Positions 301 through 6,036 of a DNA stretch of 9,868 bases are shown here, piece by piece (the stretch's first letter is position 1; each line of letters opens with the position of its first letter). Made by a program: the position numbers and the translations under genes. Where the stretch lies: the NCBI GenBank assembly GCA_937896185.1, contig CALBMG010000276.1, positions 1-9,868 on the forward strand. The letters run 5' to 3'. Origin of the DNA: an uncultured Microbacteriaceae bacterium. GTDB taxonomy: Bacteria > Actinomycetota > Actinomycetes > Actinomycetales > Microbacteriaceae. Below the pieces are notes generated by a model, which made no database searches, had not been told where the DNA came from, and saw only the letters and a list, made by a program, of their open reading frames with translations.

Positions 301-699
301 TCAATTCACTCCCCAATTGTTCGTGTTTGCCCACAGAAACCATGCCAATGCTGTCAATCCGAAAATGAAAGTGCTGGTACTTACGTTGTTCAAAAACCTG
401 CTCAGTGCCGTGTAGCAGTTCTCTTTTTCTTTCTTTTTCCGATGAAGCCTGTCTAGTCGGAATATTCGGTCTGCTCGCTCGGTAACCAGGGAAAGAAGAA
501 CAGTCAGGACAGTAACAATCATGAAAATCCAAGACGCCCGGATTGACCATGTTTGAACTGGTTCAGCGATGTTGCCAATTAATGCGACGGACACCGCAAT
601 CACCCCGGAGGAAACAGCAACCAATATTTTGTCTGCTTCTCTGTAAGCGTTTGAAAGTTCATCTTCGAGGCGTTGTTTTCGTCTCTTCCTTTCGCCCAT
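301..699 (-). CDS. Small three-helix membrane protein, third gene of the methylase/nuclease cassette
   Basis: I do not recognise the family. The 132-residue protein starts with a highly charged, probably helical segment (residues 1-24, rich in R, K, E and D). Hydrophobic stretches follow at about 25-44 and 51-72, then a basic cytoplasmic-type segment (about 74-94, with an RKKKEK run), then a third hydrophobic stretch at about 109-124. Its ATG lies 2 nt after the TAG of the DUF262-HNH gene with only a weak ribosome site (AAAGG, about 13 nt away), so it is probably translated by coupling. By inference it belongs to the same functional module. The layout of a charged helix plus a membrane hairpin superficially resembles small membrane effectors such as SLATT-type proteins, but I see no diagnostic motif. 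The DNA looks visibly more AT-rich than the flanking housekeeping genes, consistent with acquisition. A Lys-rich open frame continues past its stop (see findings). It could also be an unrelated passenger gene. Confidence 0.68.
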   Translation of the reverse strand: MGERKRRKQRLEDELSNAYREADKILVAVSSGVIAVSVALIGNIAEPVQTWSIRASWIFMIVTVLTVLLSLVTERADRIFRLDRLHRKKKEKENCYTALSRFLNNVSTSTFIFGLTALAWFLWANTNNWGVN

Positions 700-701
700 A
701 A

Positions 702-1868
702 CTACTTGTTGCCTTTGGCTCGGTTATGTGTCTTACAGAGCATCTGGCAGTTATCGACCGAAGTCGCGCCGCCCTTGCTCCAGGCCTCGACGTGATCCGC
801 GTCCATCTCGTCCAGTTTCCAAGTCTTGACAGCGTTGGCATCCTTGCCGAGGGCGCAGAGTGGACAGTTCGAGATTCCCTTGCCCTGTGCCTCGGTGGTC
901 TGCTTGGTGTACACCGACTTCTTGGTTGGTTCGTCAAACACTCGGACCTCGAGCAACTTGGTATCGACCTCACCGCCGAGGACATGCTCCCAGATGCCTT
1001 TGCGGTTCTTGATGTAGGCATCGCCGTAGAGCGCTCGTATTCGCTCGGCTACCTTGGACGGGTTGTAGGCCTTGCCGTGGTACTGCTCGTAAAGGCGGCC
1101 CCACTCGAGCCCGCGCATCTCGTTCTCTACATCGGTGAATACAGTCGACACCCAGTCAATGACGGTGGTGAAGTAGGTCTTGACCTCGTTGATGTTCATG
1201 TTGAACCGGTGCTTGCTCATGTAGCCGCCGATGTTCTCCTTGCCGCCGGCGACCCATTCCAAGGCTCGCTCCCAGTATTCCTGGCGGATGACGGTACCGG
1301 CGATGTAAGCGCTCCATTTCTGGATGTTGGAGTTCTGCGAATTGCTGAACTCTTCCTTGCCAAGCGTCACGAACGGCCCGCTGTAAACCGCGTTCAGCAA
1401 CTCCTGGGCGTTGAGTGGAACACCCGCAATGTTGATTGTCTGGAACCACTCCTTGATCTCGGTCTCGGTGCCTTCACACTCATACACGAGCAACTTGGAG
1501 TCCATGATCTTCGCTTGCTTGTCGGCCGCGAGGCCACTGAAGTATTGCTCCATGCCGTTGTCATCTTTGATCGCGAACTTGCCGGTCACGAAGCGTCCGA
1601 AACTCGTGATGCGCTGCTGACCGTCCAACACCTCGAGGTTATCCGCGGAGACCTTGTTGAAGTAGATCAACCCCAGCGGATAGCCCTTTAATAGCGAGGT
1701 TATGACGGCGACATCGCGCTTACCGTCGGCGTAGATGTAGTTGCGCTGATACTCGGGCTGAATAGTCAGCCGGCCGGCGAGGCCATACAGCCCCTTGCCC
1801 TCGAGTTCGTTGTACTGAAACCCGTCCGAGACTTGCCGGACAGTGTATTCCTGGAGTTCGGTCTTCAC
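702..1868 (-). CDS. DUF262 (GmrSD N-terminal-like) + HNH endonuclease protein
   Basis: The 388-residue protein has two parts. The N-terminal DUF262/ParB-Srx-like domain shows [10 protein letters not shown] (37-46) and DGQQRITSF (82-90), the signature thought to bind nucleotide in GmrS, BrxU and SspE relatives. After a long helical middle comes a C-terminal HNH module: CPLC (335-338), the ADH motif (357-359), N373, then C378 and H381-N382, giving a zinc-stabilised beta-beta-alpha nuclease fold. Related proteins are NTP-stimulated nucleases acting against modified or foreign DNA; this is family knowledge. Here the adjacent methylase suggests a restriction partner, which is inference. The start is GTG at 1866-1868, overlapping the methylase TGA by 4 nt (GTGA), with a good ribosome site AGGAAGG at 1876-1882, 7 nt upstream. 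All HNH residues appear intact. An antisense open frame of 321 codons here is a shadow. Confidence 0.9.
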
Positions 1869-3028
1869 TTCGCTACCTTCCTGTGGCGGATGAGAATTCG
1901 CTGGTAAACCTTGACGTCATTTATTACTCCGGACATATTTAACGGGATTATGCCTGGTTTGCCGAAACGGCGAAAATATGCATCCTGTTGATCTTTTGCC
2001 GAATACCATTTAGTCCTGAATGGGTAGTTCGGGTCACTCTGCGCTAAAGTTCCGACTATCTCGAACTGCTCTGGGCTGTACTTGTGTAGGAAACTGATCG
2101 GCACACCCATAACACCATCGAAGTCACTCGGGATCGCATCCGTGAAGGACACCTCGATTGCCTCATAGTTGTCGTACTTCCGATAACCCTGGCCCTTGAT
2201 CTCCTTGTGCTTGCTGAACTTGATGTTGTCGGCTTGAGTCATAAGGGGCAGCGGCTGGTGGCGCTTGCCATGGTCGATGTTCGTGAACCAACAGGCATTG
2301 CCGAGGCGAGTGTAGTCACCCACATAACCTAGGCGGGCTGCCTTCTCGCGGTCACTTGGCGAGATATCAGCGCCTTCAGGCACCCGAAACACAAGGTCAC
2401 TTCCGTTCGCTGTGGCACCGAGCCACAGACGGTCACCCTGAATGAGTGGGAAGACTTCCTTGTACGTAATTGCGTTCATGTTGCCGATGATCACGAACTT
2501 CTTGTCTGCTTCGGTGATCCAGCCCAGGAACTCTCGAAAGAGCGAGAAGGGCGGGTTGGTCACGATGATGTCCGCTTCGTCGCGCAACGCGGTGACTTCA
2601 GCGCCGCGGAAGTCACCATCGCCATCGAGATACTGCCACTCAAGGTCGTCGACGTTGATAATGTTGTCGCCGGTTGTGTCGCGAGTAAGTGTGAAGATCT
2701 TGCCGTTCGCGGCAGTCTTGGACTCGTCAAACTGAGGGCTCTCAAACTCGAAGAGAGTGGGCTGAAGGTCAAGCTGCTTCGGCTTGCTGTTAGGCGCGAA
2801 ACTGGTGCTGATCAGTTTCTTCAGGCCGAGGCGCTCGAAGTTCTGGGCGAAATACTTAGTGAAGTTGCTCCACTCGGGATCATCGCAGGGCAGCAAGACC
2901 GTCTTGCCGCGGAACACGTCCGCATCGTAATCGAGATAGGCGTTGATTTCCTTCTCGATGTCATGAAACTGCGTGTAGAACTCGTCGTTCCTCGCCTTTT
3001 TTGCGTTCCCAAGATTTTCGTTAGCCAC
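1865..3028 (-). CDS. EcoRI-family adenine-specific DNA methyltransferase
   Basis: The 387-residue protein resembles the M.EcoRI family, which transfers methyl from S-adenosylmethionine to N6 of adenine. The N-terminal part has the family look ([11 protein letters not shown], 10-20; [12 protein letters not shown], 45-56). The catalytic motif IV is TNPPFS (157-162), followed by LFREFLGWI and a strand [10 protein letters not shown] (178-187). Length fits M.EcoRI (about 325) with extra residues. The recognition sequence cannot be read from the protein. It is the first gene of a three-gene cassette, so methylation would be expressed before cleavage, as a host-protecting system needs. The start is GTG at 3026-3028; no convincing Shine-Dalgarno sequence precedes it, and a TACGAT box sits 6 nt upstream, suggesting a leaderless message. 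It is not paired with an EcoRI-type PD-(D/E)XK nuclease here. An orphan methylase with an unrelated neighbour is the alternative, made unlikely by the GTGA overlap. Confidence 0.93.
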
Positions 3029-3034
3029 GGCTCA

Positions 3035-3040
3035 ATCGTA
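3035..3040 (-). promoter_or_regulatory. Candidate -10 box giving a leaderless methylase transcript
   Basis: TACGAT on the minus strand matches TAnnnT and ends 6 nt before the GTG start at 3028. With the usual spacing of about 7 nt, transcription would start at the G of GTG itself. No good -35 is visible: the best option, ATTAAA at 16 nt spacing, is poor. No ribosome-binding sequence precedes the start, which fits the leaderless initiation common in actinobacteria. Confidence 0.4.
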
Positions 3041-3054
3041 TTCCGAAGTTCCGA
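3041..3054 (-). repeat. Tandem TCGGAA repeat in the cassette promoter
   Basis: The minus strand reads TCGGAA-CT-TCGGAA, two identical hexamers 8 nt apart, immediately upstream of the candidate -10 box of the methylase gene. The position between the -10 and -35 regions is where an operator would act. It could be chance, since the unit is short. Confidence 0.35.
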
Positions 3055-3150
3055 CATTTAATCGACTCAACACAATGGCGGGCATCTGGGAGCCGTCAGC
3101 AACCCACAGGGTCGCTTCCTCCCAAATCCCGCAACACCCAGCCGCACAAA

Positions 3151-3178
3151 TAAAAAGACCCCCGAACAAGGGGGTCTT
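3151..3178 (-). terminator. Intrinsic terminator after tRNA-Ser(GCU)
   Basis: A perfect 9-bp stem, AAGACCCCC/GGGGGTCTT around a 6-nt loop (3155-3178), is followed on the minus strand by a T-rich tract (TTTTTATTT, beginning within the stem end). It lies 6 nt beyond the encoded CCA of tRNA-Ser. It ends the tRNA transcript and, since no other hairpin follows apbE, probably also read-through from the flavin operon, insulating the cassette downstream. The plus-strand side lacks a T-run, so it is one-directional. Confidence 0.87.
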
Positions 3179-3184
3179 CATATT

Positions 3185-3276
3185 TGGCGGAGACGGTGGG
3201 ATTTGAACCCACGGTACCCCGGAGGGTACTCCACCTTAGCAGGGTGGTGCACTAGGCCGAACTATGCGACGTCTCC
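3185..3276 (-). tRNA. tRNA-Ser(GCU)
   Basis: The minus strand folds as a complete class II tRNA: acceptor GGAGACG pairs with CGTCTCC, the anticodon stem CCACC/GGTGG closes the loop CTGCTAA (anticodon GCU, reading AGU and AGC serine codons), and a long variable arm has a GTACC/GGTAC stem, as expected for tRNA-Ser. The T-arm carries GGTTCAAATCC. The discriminator is G and the 3' CCA is encoded (3185-3187). A TATCAT box (3290-3295) lies 13 nt upstream as a weak -10 candidate, without a good -35. It follows apbE by 43 nt. Confidence 0.97.
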
Positions 3277-3319
3277 TAGTAACCCCTCAATGATACAGAC
3301 GAAATTGGTGGCCGGGAAA

Positions 3320-4090
3320 CTAGTGTGTGGCGGCGGGCTGTCGCAGCAGTTCCATCATCGCGGGGTTTGCCCGCACCTCGCCGTCGGCGTGGAATACGAG
3401 CACGGCGACCCCGGCGGTGCGCGTCGCCAGCTCGAGGGTGTCGCTGCCCCCGCTGACGATGGCAGTCGCCCACACGTCGCTGGTCACAATATCCGATGAC
3501 AATACGGTGGCTTGAATGATGGATCCGGTCGAGTCTGCGGCGCGCCAAATGTGTTCGCCGCGTTCGCTGGTGCCGCTGGTCGCGATGGCCGACCATGGCC
3601 CGCCGAGCCTGACGACTGCTGCGGGTTGACCCGACCCGTCGGGTTGTGCGATGCCCGTGACCCACGCGCCGGGTTCGCCGGATACGGTCATGTCGCCGCC
3701 CGCGTTGATGCTGAACGCGGTGAATCCGTGGGCGCGCATCACCGAGTGGGCTGCGGCGAGTGCGTCAGCTTTGACAATTCCGGACAGGTCGATGACCCCG
3801 TCGGGTCGGTGCGGGGTGAACGCGCCATGGGTGGCTTGCCGCCAATCCAGGGCTCGCGCATAGGTGTCACGAATGTCGTCGGACAGTTCCGCCAGCGTGA
3901 CGTCGCTGCGCGACAGTTGGCTGAGCGGCGATTCGGGGCGGTACAGCGAGTAGTCCCGGTCGTACAGGTCGAATACTTTTTCGATCCCGTCCAGTGCGGC
4001 GGTGGCTCGCGCCCGGTCGGTGTCGTCAGTGGAATCGGTGACGCGGATCGACACGGTCGTGCCCATCGTGTCAAAGATGTGGACGGTCAT
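3320..4090 (-). CDS. apbE: FAD:protein FMN transferase (ApbE family)
   Basis: ApbE enzymes split FAD and attach FMN through a phosphoester to a Thr or Ser of target flavoproteins, using Mg2+. The 256-residue protein shows the family motifs in order: FDTMGTTVS (6-14), DGVIDLSGIVKADAL (97-111), NAGGD (129-133), AIATSGTSERG (168-178), and ATVLSSDIVTSDVWATA (194-210), where the SD-x2-AT stretch matches the metal-binding A-D-x-AT region. It is shorter than many ApbE proteins and begins directly with the core, with no signal peptide or lipobox, implying a cytosolic enzyme. The ATG overlaps the stop of the FMN-binding gene (ATGA, 4087-4090), so enzyme and probable substrate are translationally coupled. 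It is the last gene of a three-gene electron-transfer operon. Confidence in the family is high; the substrate is inferred from context. Confidence 0.93.
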   Translation of the reverse strand: MTVHIFDTMGTTVSIRVTDSTDDTDRARATAALDGIEKVFDLYDRDYSLYRPESPLSQLSRSDVTLAELSDDIRDTYARALDWRQATHGAFTPHRPDGVIDLSGIVKADALAAAHSVMRAHGFTAFSINAGGDMTVSGEPGAWVTGIAQPDGSGQPAAVVRLGGPWSAIATSGTSERGEHIWRAADSTGSIIQATVLSSDIVTSDVWATAIVSGGSDTLELATRTAGVAVLVFHADGEVRANPAMMELLRQPAATH

Positions 4091-4620
4091 CCCGTGTACC
4101 CGGCGGCGTCCAGCGCGGATTGCAACGACTGCTTATAGGACTGCGAGGTGTAGGTCGCCCGGGAAATGTTGGTGATGTCGGCGGATTGGATGTCGAGGAC
4201 TTCGGCCAACAGGATGGGGATGGCCTGCTCGTTGATTTGAACACTCTTGCGGTCGTTCGAGGGGAACTGCAGCGTTTGCACGTCGGTGATGGCGCCACCC
4301 GAGATGACGACCTGGACTTGCATGGGTCCGAATCGGGTTTGCACGGTGTCGCCCACAAATGTGCCGTCTGTTCCCGCGGCCGCAGTGGTGGTTTCGGTGC
4401 TGGTCGATGTGTCCGTTGTTGATGTGTCGGTGGTCGAATCCGTTGCGGTATTCGTCGATTCTGTCGCCTGGGTGGTGTCGGTGGTCGCGGTGTGGTCGCT
4501 CGACGCAGTCGAGGTGGTGTCCACGTTTTCGGCGGCCAGACCGGCCTGTCCGATGTTCCAGCCGATGGCGATCAAGCTCGCTGTGGCGGCACCGGTGATG
4601 AAAGCTGACGTTGTGCGCAT
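4087..4620 (-). CDS. Exported FMN-binding domain protein, likely flavinylated
   Basis: The 177-residue protein has a hydrophobic N-terminal segment (about 6-30, ending GLAAEN) that is a signal peptide or membrane anchor. A low-complexity Thr/Ser/Asp linker (about 33-83) follows, then an FMN-binding domain of the NqrC/RnfG type (about 84-172), starting DGTFVGDTVQTRFGPMQV. The attachment motif, usually SGATxT/S, appears as SRATYTS (153-159), so T158 is the expected FMN acceptor; the Gly-to-Arg change is unusual. The linker probably holds the flavin domain away from the membrane in the cell-wall zone. A good ribosome site, TAAGGAG, overlaps the stop of the upstream reductase, and the gene overlaps apbE by 4 nt. 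It is the probable ApbE substrate and an electron carrier beyond the membrane reductase. Terminal acceptor unknown. Confidence 0.91.
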   Translation of the reverse strand: MRTTSAFITGAATASLIAIGWNIGQAGLAAENVDTTSTASSDHTATTDTTQATESTNTATDSTTDTSTTDTSTSTETTTAAAGTDGTFVGDTVQTRFGPMQVQVVISGGAITDVQTLQFPSNDRKSVQINEQAIPILLAEVLDIQSADITNISRATYTSQSYKQSLQSALDAAGYTG

Positions 4621-4629
4621 AGTGGCTCC

Positions 4630-6036
4630 TTACCAGGCGAATTCTTCCCAGTGCACGGCGTGCGCAGGGACTTTGTGTGCTGCGAGATCGGCGCGGACGT
4701 TCGCCATCCAATCGGTGGGTCCGCACATGTAGTAATCGCATTCACGGGGTTTGTGAACGTAGTGGGTGATATTTTCGCCGTTCGCCCATTCTTCGTGGGG
4801 CAACCACGATGCGGTGTTGGCGCGTCGGCCGCTGAGGGTAACCAACCGGGCTCCCCTGGCCCGGCACAGGTCGGTGATCTCGGTCACGAGGTAGGGCTCG
4901 GCGTCGCTGGCGCGCAGGAAGACGGTCACGTCTCCGCGGTGTGCGGGCATGTCCTCCAGCAGGGCGCGGATGGGTGCCGCCCCGATTCCTGCCGCCATCA
5001 ACACCACTTTGGGTGATGTGCGCACCGTCTCGGTGAAGACTCCGTACGGGCCTTCCGCCCACACGCGGGTGCCCACTCGGATTCGCTGCAGTGCTGTGGT
5101 GTTGTCACCCAATGCTCGCACTGTCAGTCGGATGTATCGTCCGTTGGGTGCGGCCGATACCGAGAAGGGGTGTGCTTCCCACAGCATTCGCGGTGTAATG
5201 AACCGCCATTGGCCGAAAGATCCCGAGGGGAATGCCCAGCGTTCGAGGCCACGACCGGTGATGTACACGGAGACCACTCCGGGGGCGATGGTGTCGACTC
5301 GTGCGACGACGAGGCGGTGGCGCAGGTTGTGCACGACAGGTGTGATGACGCGGAACACCAGCACGCTGAGGATGGTGGCTATGAACAGTACGGCCCAATA
5401 AATCCGTGCAGCAGTGCCTTCGGCAAACATTCCACCCCACTCGAACTGGTGGGGGATCGACAACACCAAAACCGCATAGGTCGCGAGGTGAATCGCATGC
5501 CAGACGGCGTAGGGCAGCACGCGACGGGCGGCAACAATGCTGCTGACGACGACCACGATCATGCCGATGAAGGCGAGGAAGGCCTTGAGCATGTCGCCGT
5601 CGGCGTCCCAATAGTTGACGACCTGCTGAATCACGGGTGTGTCGGTGGTCAGGGCAGTCCCCACGATGAGTCCGGCGAAGTGGGCGGCGATCAGGTAGAG
5701 GACCGGTTTGCCCAGTTGGTTGTGCAGGGTGAGAGCGCGGTCATGGCCGACCACTTTTTCGACTAGCGGCACTCGTGCGGCGAGGATAAACATGATGAGC
5801 AACAGGTTCGTTCCCACGAGCCCGGCGAGGATGCCAATTCCGATGATGGTTTCGGGAACTGTGCCAAAGTATCGGGCTCCACCGTCGGCAAAGAACAGGG
5901 CGACCGCCACTGCACTGGTCAGCGGCACCAGCGCTTCGAGGAAATCTTTGCGTGTGTATCGGCGAGAGCGCCGGGTGCGCAATGTGGCCGCACTGGGGAT
6001 TTGGCGTGTGCGGGGGCTGGTGGTTGCGATGTTCAC
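4630..6036 (-). CDS. Ferric-reductase-like transmembrane oxidoreductase (haem, FAD, NAD(P)H)
   Basis: The 468-residue protein combines a basic cytoplasmic N-terminus (1-30), about six transmembrane segments (about 33-230), an FAD-binding FR-type domain and a C-terminal NAD(P)H-binding domain. Candidate haem-ligand histidines sit at H105 and H119 in one helix region and H180/H183 and H196 in another, as in ferric-reductase-like membrane domains. The flavin site shows HPFSVSA (289-295), and the nucleotide site shows GIGAAPIRALL (350-360), CGP (438-440) and the terminal EEFAW. Known relatives pass electrons from cytosolic NAD(P)H through FAD and haem to the outer face of the membrane. Here the likely recipient is the FMN-binding protein encoded 9 nt downstream. 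The start is GTG at 6034-6036 with no good ribosome site; a slightly different start is possible. The physiological acceptor (iron, oxygen, quinone or a protein) is not shown by the sequence. Confidence 0.9.
   Translation of the reverse strand: MNIATTSPRTRQIPSAATLRTRRSRRYTRKDFLEALVPLTSAVAVALFFADGGARYFGTVPETIIGIGILAGLVGTNLLLIMFILAARVPLVEKVVGHDRALTLHNQLGKPVLYLIAAHFAGLIVGTALTTDTPVIQQVVNYWDADGDMLKAFLAFIGMIVVVVSSIVAARRVLPYAVWHAIHLATYAVLVLSIPHQFEWGGMFAEGTAARIYWAVLFIATILSVLVFRVITPVVHNLRHRLVVARVDTIAPGVVSVYITGRGLERWAFPSGSFGQWRFITPRMLWEAHPFSVSAAPNGRYIRLTVRALGDNTTALQRIRVGTRVWAEGPYGVFTETVRTSPKVVLMAAGIGAAPIRALLEDMPAHRGDVTVFLRASDAEPYLVTEITDLCRARGARLVTLSGRRANTASWLPHEEWANGENITHYVHKPRECDYYMCGPTDWMANVRADLAAHKVPAHAVHWEEFAW

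Follow-up and report, generated by a model that had tools for sequence, protein, structure and literature searches.

What decides which DNA is cut when an EcoRI-type methyltransferase is followed by a nuclease of quite another family? The question arises from a contig of 9,868 bases from an uncultured Microbacteriaceae bacterium (CALBMG010000276.1; the window hereafter is this whole stretch), in which open reading frame (ORF) calls outline a three-gene operon on the minus strand. It encodes an adenine methyltransferase, a DUF262-HNH nuclease and a small membrane protein. We suggest that the first two genes probably form a restriction-modification system with the methyltransferase as its specificity subunit. 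Two hypervariable segments of the methyltransferase, V1 and V2, would choose the site, and an invariant nuclease would cut DNA in which that site is unmethylated. Evidence comes mainly from relatives of the window genes. There, 217 pairs with full-length genes reduced to 161 distinct pairs, and tests of the nuclease against the variable segments used the 117 of these with a nuclease score above 600. The elements on which the argument turns are the following.

1865..3028, minus strand: EcoRI-family adenine methyltransferase of 387 amino acids (aa), GTG start; PF13651 at E 5.6e-122, PADLOC MTase_II at 294.3 bits
2300..2425, minus strand: V1, methyltransferase residues 202-243, the first of its hypervariable segments and predicted to belong to the target-recognition region; 28 classes in 161 pairs, fixed in R.EcoRI-paired relatives
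1907..2053, minus strand: V2, C-terminal hypervariable module of the methyltransferase (residues 326-374); 65 classes in 161 pairs, fixed in R.EcoRI-paired relatives
2645..2680, minus strand: EF-hand- or dockerin-like loop (methyltransferase residues 117-128), a candidate docking or Ca2+ element
702..1868, minus strand: DUF262-HNH nuclease of 388 aa, GTG start; PF03235 and PF01844, PADLOC REase_II at 285.7 bits
1383..1763, minus strand: DUF262 domain of the nuclease (PF03235 match), ParB/Srx-like and predicted to be nucleoside triphosphate-dependent; DGQQR in 117/117
705..824, minus strand: HNH domain of the nuclease with zinc-ribbon residues (PF01844); D358, H359 and N373 in 117/117, N382 in 116/117

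An EcoRI-type methyltransferase and its DUF262-HNH neighbour

The family assignments of both proteins are firm. The PF13651 match of the methyltransferase covers positions 1-344 of a profile of 345, and its NPPF motif (residues 158-161) is kept in all 117 sequences compared. The methyltransferase stop and the nuclease start overlap as GTGA. In the nuclease, family scans place PF03235/GmrSD_N at residues 36-162 (E 2.1e-20) and PF01844/HNH at residues 349-388 (E 1.1e-7). The latter stands in place of a DUF1524 nuclease domain, which is absent, and family and profile scans of the nuclease found no helicase domain. The PADLOC profile named 'Type II restriction enzyme' spans residues 9-388, nearly the full length. 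Q37, P38, Q41, R42, the DGQQR motif (residues 82-86), C335, C338, D358, H359 and N373 are present in 117/117 nucleases, and Y40, C378, H381 and N382 in 116/117. The predicted structure is of low confidence (predicted local distance difference test, pLDDT, 59.6). The first Foldseek match of this model is BrxU (probability 0.99, E 1.7e-3), followed by ParB/Srx folds. The input alignments for structure prediction held 31 and 32 rows, close relatives only. The closest nuclease found in whole genomes has 88% identity and belongs to the family of Aurantimicrobium, Microbacteriaceae. Scans of ten window proteins gave no match to an EcoRI-type nuclease and no family match to phosphorothioation genes of the SspABCD type; the neighbour of the nuclease is the methyltransferase.

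The two genes are found together far beyond chance. A nuclease scan with one genome per species confirmed at least 522 relatives, and the best 80 loci, from many phyla, were kept. A methyltransferase lies upstream on the same strand in 77 of these 80, seven of them as partial ORFs, most at a contig edge. Spacing ranges from -60 to +40 nucleotides (nt) in 66/77 pairs, with a 4-nt overlap being common. Among the three nuclease loci without a methyltransferase, two start near a contig end (L030, L057) and the third is L033. The reverse test sought PF13651 in 1,191 genomes from four phyla, drawn without regard to the nuclease and excluding the four starting genomes as well as two below-cut-off matches (L126, L130). 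It yielded 30 PF13651 genes, or 27 intact ones once a broken gene (L104/L105), a contig-end fragment (L121) and a remnant with stops (L118) were set aside. The DUF262-HNH nuclease adjoins 24 of the 27, including one counted as present although split over two ORFs (L110). Of the other three, one lies beside R.EcoRI (L113) and two have neither nuclease in the stretch examined (L100, L120).

On viral contigs, where the loci are redundant, the methyltransferase is present in 74/79 nuclease loci; four of the remaining five are cut by a contig edge and the fifth is a weak match. Conversely, 30/79 viral methyltransferase loci have no downstream nuclease, five of these near a contig end. In these counts, L141 was entered once, under the methyltransferase scan, and L202, with a nuclease match upstream, as unpaired. 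The methyltransferase is thus often alone and the nuclease almost never, which is the asymmetry predicted for a restriction-modification pair. Judged by gene order and sequence, the two genes form a conserved and widespread operon unit.

The initial annotation had described the locus as a restriction-modification-like pair with an unusual nuclease, resting on the GTGA overlap, a 2-nt gap to the membrane gene and intact NPPF and HNH residues. Both junctions were confirmed on the minus strand, and the motif and residues proved intact and near-universal among relatives. The pairing counts of 24/27 and 77/80 support the pair itself. The annotation had named homologous methylases occurring mostly without the nuclease as an outcome that would break the pairing. 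The search instead found 24/27 paired, one beside R.EcoRI and two beside neither. Its assumption that R.EcoRI is the classical partner of the M.EcoRI family did not hold up here, since R.EcoRI is a minority partner in this sample (1/27 versus 24/27 for DUF262-HNH). That two methyltransferase segments vary while the nuclease stays constant had escaped the annotation.

Some loci carry further genes within the pair. In L040, L041 and L058, a gene of about 200 aa, starting MKGIIYIMTTAVSGL and GIY-YIG-like by eye, is inserted between methyltransferase and nuclease. L058 contains another inserted gene that looks like DUF3800 by eye.

Variable modules beside a constant nuclease

Alignment of close relatives revealed that the flanks of V2 are conserved (GVPISFL..PEQFEIV before, Y.RI.IR after), while sequence and length in between change completely. 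A second hypervariable stretch, V1, was seen over the 117 distinct pairs. The limits of both were set by eye and follow window numbering. Over the same 117 pairs, no hypervariable block of 20 residues was found in the nuclease (mean majority 0.62-0.94). Clustering at 50% identity divides the 161 distinct pairs into 28 V1 and 65 V2 classes, which occur in 124 combinations; the V2 of the window is a singleton class. Modules recur on divergent cores, with 35 V2 and 102 V1 comparisons reaching at least 0.75 identity on cores below 0.65. Pairs with the same V2 had V1 in common in 52/320 comparisons versus 37.6 +/- 7.1 in shuffles (74 of 2,000 shuffles reach 52). Nucleases that are 90-98% identical are accompanied by a different V2 in 18/21 comparisons (25 comparisons lie at nuclease identity of at least 0.9, and four at 0.98 or above fall outside the 21). 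At 80-90% nuclease identity, V2 is unrelated in 403/431 comparisons. With the methyltransferase core removed, nuclease identity has a partial r of 0.024 with V1 (199/999 permutations reach it) and of 0.072 with V2 (15/999), and its correlation with the core itself is 0.285 (0/999). All of these are comparisons between sequences and not independent events, and the shuffles and permutations leave shared ancestry in. On such sequence evidence, V1 and V2 assort nearly independently, and the constant nuclease hardly tracks them.

Relatives paired with R.EcoRI provide a natural control. R.EcoRI itself recognizes GAATTC, and M.EcoRI methylates this site, as stated in a passage of PMC4081073. Were specificity determined by V1 and V2, both would be expected to stay frozen next to R.EcoRI, and this is what was observed. 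Among 19 plasmid records with an R.EcoRI relative, seven were fetched and six used as the control. The six methyltransferases (from Escherichia, Klebsiella twice, Leuconostoc, Rhodococcus and Staphylococcus, the last unannotated and found by ORF search) share a single V1 class and a single V2 class. In 12 comparisons among them at core identities of 0.57-0.72, mean identity is 0.76 for V1 and 0.79 for V2. Both modules reach at least 0.5 in 15 of 4,510 DUF262-paired comparisons at core identities of 0.57-0.75. The same two classes occur in three further genes beside R.EcoRI relatives, namely L113, L363 (with a partial R ORF) and L341, and in the split methyltransferase genes of a Helicobacter phage (L291).

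The strongest single case is L341. Its core is 57-59% identical to DUF262-paired genes versus 47-51% to EcoRI-paired ones; its V2 is 0.89 identical to that of EcoRI, its V1 is of the EcoRI class (0.59), and an R.EcoRI relative follows. Among the 161 DUF262-paired genes, an EcoRI-class V1 (at least 0.5 identity) occurs in ten, an EcoRI-class V2 in two, and both together in none. L341 hence seems special by its combination of V1 with a V2 at 0.89, and not by V1 alone. The specificity of R.EcoRI relatives other than EcoRI is presumed. The seventh record fetched, L299, has at 1417-3307 an R.EcoRI relative (47.6%) whose neighbor is annotated as a DNA methyltransferase of a different kind; a PF13651-family methyltransferase was found neither in L299 nor in the weak genome match L296.

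Some relatives carry simple repeats inside V2. Eight such genes (L060, L071, L095, L154, L156, L169, L172 and L174) contain (AG)n, (GA)n, (CA)n, (GAACA)n or A9 tracts. After the repeat, two or three frames run to different endings, each closing with the same Y.RI.I+ strand. In the seven loci first seen, 19/21 frames after the repeat end in the module strand versus 1/342 out-of-frame readings of repeat-free genes (Fisher p 2e-28, for loci chosen after being noticed). Of nine genes that carry a repeat near V2, a looser scan found at least two such frames in eight and a single one in L218; among genes without a repeat the count was 11/205. The nuclease lies downstream in six of the eight repeat genes, and L169 and L172 are viral genes without nuclease. 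Slippage of the repeats would allow a gene to move between these endings. The only hint of this is a difference of one TDRQ unit between the proteins P0206 and P0229, within a stretch that looks like a repeat. Viral contigs scanned at the protein level with L156 and L174 yielded the contigs of these genes themselves plus more distant ones. In two other loci, L133 (3001-6529) and L142 (1549-4994), one nuclease is preceded by two complete methyltransferases that differ in V1 and V2. A nuclease with a fixed site could hardly serve multi-frame and tandem methyltransferases, while a nuclease taking its site from the methyltransferase could.

Related arrangements were seen elsewhere. The methyltransferases P0206, P0216, P0229 and P0236 (508-518 aa) contain two tandem V2 modules in one frame. 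Poly-G tracts stand just before the GVPI motif in L117 (1270-2515, G10) and L114 (1453-2415, G9). In L117, a full V2 lies in another frame, which is suggestive of an on/off switch.

Target choice, rival explanations and known systems

The proposed mechanism begins with V1 and V2, which together would form the target-recognition region and pick the DNA site. The nuclease may dock on the methyltransferase, possibly by way of the segment that contains the EF-hand-like loop. A site lacking the adenine methyl mark would then trigger nucleotide-dependent HNH cleavage, and slippage of the repeats could switch the target of methylation and of cutting at once. Nucleotide stimulation of cutting would be expected by analogy with GmrSD and BrxU (as described in parts of PMC4619093 and PMC12707154). 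For docking, the segment with the loop is the best candidate, since conservation falls by 0.22-0.26 at methyltransferase residues 76-125 in 17 solitary viral genes versus the 117 paired genes, a comparison that leaves sequence relatedness in place. Among fixed positions, F93, D128 and W131 lose most in the solitary genes. By pattern, the EF-hand-like loop occurs in 110/151 DUF262-paired genes (10 of the 161 lack the anchor motif and were excluded), 8/17 solitary genes and 1/9 R.EcoRI-paired genes (L341). The system likely follows the shared-specificity logic of Type I and Type III restriction, which a GmrS-type nuclease would put into effect with no helicase involved.

On balance, and with somewhat less assurance, we lean towards a wider proposal, namely a restriction class spanning phyla. 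One universal GmrS-type HNH nuclease would be served by EcoRI-type methyltransferases as its exchangeable specificity subunits, and two independently swappable modules would act as a combinatorial code. In some members, repeat slippage would move the gene between up to three frames, retargeting methylation and restriction together. The EcoRI pair would then have branched off from this class, one module combination having been fixed by a nuclease that brings its own specificity.

An invariant nuclease would also be explained by a context-free reader. The nuclease would not bind the methyltransferase, and its DUF262 domain would read the presence or absence of N6-methyladenine in any context, as in SspE-like sensing, making V1 and V2 irrelevant. 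The DUF262 proteins GmrSD, BrxU and SspE do sense DNA modification according to passages of PMC12707154 and PMC8713573. Nevertheless, the nuclease rarely occurs without the methyltransferase, and the far weaker conservation of residues 76-125 in solitary methyltransferases may point to partner contact. Such a reader would, moreover, be confused by other adenine methylation in the cell. We consider this explanation unlikely, although far from negligible. An orthodox Type II system, in which the nuclease reads its own fixed short site like R.EcoRI and V1/V2 variation is unrelated to specificity (e.g., an escape from phage inhibitors), appears improbable. It would accommodate the two separate genes, the filing of both proteins under Type II by PADLOC and the faint link between nuclease and V2. 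But V1 and V2 are conserved where the neighbor is R.EcoRI, discrete module classes reappear on cores less than 0.65 identical, and one nuclease can be preceded by two methyltransferases with different modules. That the nuclease stays invariant while V1 and V2 vary would also tend to weigh against independent recognition of one site. As a last alternative, all three genes might form a single abortive-infection module linked to the membrane, whose effector would be the membrane protein; in its favor, the membrane gene comes straight after the nuclease gene in the window, in L427 and, with a 4-nt overlap, in L001. This is very improbable because relatives of the membrane gene were matched in 2/239 Microbacteriaceae genomes (one weak, over 52 positions) and in none of L428-L431 or the other fetched loci screened, whereas the methyltransferase-nuclease pair occurs in many phyla.

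Several observations weigh against a methyltransferase that supplies the specificity. To our knowledge, no target site is known for any DUF262-paired member, so that the link between V1/V2 and specificity rests on the R.EcoRI comparison and on analogy. The predicted methyltransferase model is poor (pLDDT 63.3) and found no match to the PDB in the fold search, meaning that V1 and V2 are not placeable at the DNA. The V1 of L341 (0.59) is less EcoRI-like than that of ten DUF262-paired genes (0.67-0.69). V1 and V2 are linked slightly above shuffles, and the faint link of V2 to the nuclease is reached by only 15/999 permutations. The EF-hand-like loop is present in 8/17 solitary genes and missing by pattern in 41/151 paired ones. 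A full-length nuclease (L033, 4454-5623) stands in a genome draft where PF13651 has no match, and a fused methyltransferase-nuclease ORF, sought across the fetched loci, was not found. Copies with another repeat number were not found for L174 in phages and plasmids or for L154 in plasmids, the only set searched for it. Repeats, tandem methyltransferases and R.EcoRI swaps all belong to relatives, and the window gene has one plain V2.

Known systems share parts of this arrangement. The EcoRI system has a methyltransferase of the same Pfam family, PF13651, but the neighbor of the methyltransferase here is a DUF262-HNH nuclease and not one of the R.EcoRI type. The order here is M then R, whereas the EcoRI pairs fetched from E. 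coli, Klebsiella, Leuconostoc and Rhodococcus run R then M. V1 and V2 are free to vary here and fixed there, with both EcoRI modules in 0/161. Type III systems (Mod/Res) likewise consist of two genes, with a variable methyltransferase region and a constant nuclease, a likeness of sequence in which V1 and V2 would take the recognition role. Mod alone modifies while restriction needs both Mod and Res (according to passages of PMC3936762). However, the nuclease here contains no helicase motor and the methyltransferase is of another family. Phase-variable mod genes resemble the relatives with simple repeats, except that here the other frames lead to alternative module endings and not only to on/off states. 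In the Type IIG enzymes JHP1272/HP1353-HP1354 of Helicobacter pylori, a homopolymer tract changes specificity via the C-terminal domain (same source, in part). A simple tract with a C-terminal change of specificity, a putative one here, is common to both, yet there a single gene also encodes the endonuclease domain, while nuclease and methyltransferase genes here are separate and up to three frames carry alternative module endings. GmrSD, BrxU and SspE (DUF262 + DUF1524) also join a DUF262 domain with DGQQR to a histidine-metal nuclease domain. The nuclease here differs in having HNH PF01844 instead of DUF1524 within 388 aa. Its partner is a base methyltransferase, in contrast to none for Type IV and phosphorothioation genes for SspE.

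Restriction-modification is a known kind of system, and PADLOC already holds the pair as putative Type II; what is new by the evidence here is the arrangement. Among the titles and abstracts listed from the open-access PMC literature, none described the pairing, its modules or a switch by repeats, a search that left most subscription papers and REBASE outside. The initial annotation had singled out the locus as an under-described system. It is less under-described than first thought, since the PADLOC Type II profile covers the nuclease near full length. In the genomes sampled, most EcoRI-type methyltransferases adjoin a different, apparently specificity-free nuclease, which turns a well-known family upside down. 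Two protein searches returned at least 8,000 relatives each; thousands of proteins may therefore belong to the modular class. The target code of the class could be readable from V1 and V2 together with long-read methylation data. Multi-frame repeats would be a very compact switch of the defence target with self-protection kept. The pair also offers a way to test how a nuclease of the GmrS type (DUF262) separates self from non-self.

The membrane gene and the surroundings of the operon

The third gene and the nearest upstream feature are located as follows.

301..699, minus strand: small membrane protein of 132 aa, a lineage-specific accessory gene of the operon; relatives directly 3' of the nuclease in L001 and L427
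3185..3276, minus strand: tRNA-Ser(GCT), just upstream of the operon and a possible insertion site

The membrane ORF starts 2 nt past the nuclease stop. Two strongly hydrophobic stretches lie in its product, one within residues 22-46 and one within 51-76. The protein has no Pfam or NCBIfam match at cut-off, and PADLOC and PHROGs matches are weak. An identity as SLATT or antiporter protein was rejected as the matches lie below curated cut-offs. A protein database search with it returned only itself. The relative in L001, a Microbacteriaceae genome draft, is 39% identical and that of L427 is likewise from Microbacteriaceae. In one lineage the membrane gene does belong to the operon, as a Microbacteriaceae add-on outside the general module. 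The initial annotation had counted it as part of the module and proposed membrane damage or anchoring at the site of phage DNA entry. The first claim fails, as relatives directly downstream were found only in those two loci, and the second is unsupported.

The operon region has a guanine plus cytosine content of about 0.46-0.58 per 500-base window, compared with mostly 0.57-0.66 elsewhere. The tRNA-Ser(GCT) gene is 156 nt from the operon start, with the operon on its downstream side. Low G+C and a neighboring tRNA gene are as would be expected for an acquired island. A tRNA-Ser(GCT) near the pair also occurs in two other actinobacterial loci (L038, 704-795; L021, 1672-1763), possibly as a common insertion site. 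Positions 1-65 of the window resemble a tRNA end cut by the contig edge, probably tRNA-Arg by eye, although ARAGORN makes no call. If so, the operon would lie between two tRNA genes. On the other side, positions 3320-6036 hold genes that adjoin or overlap one another and encode an ApbE family protein, a flavin mononucleotide (FMN)-binding domain protein and a ferric-reductase-like membrane protein; together they resemble an operon for flavin-dependent electron transfer.

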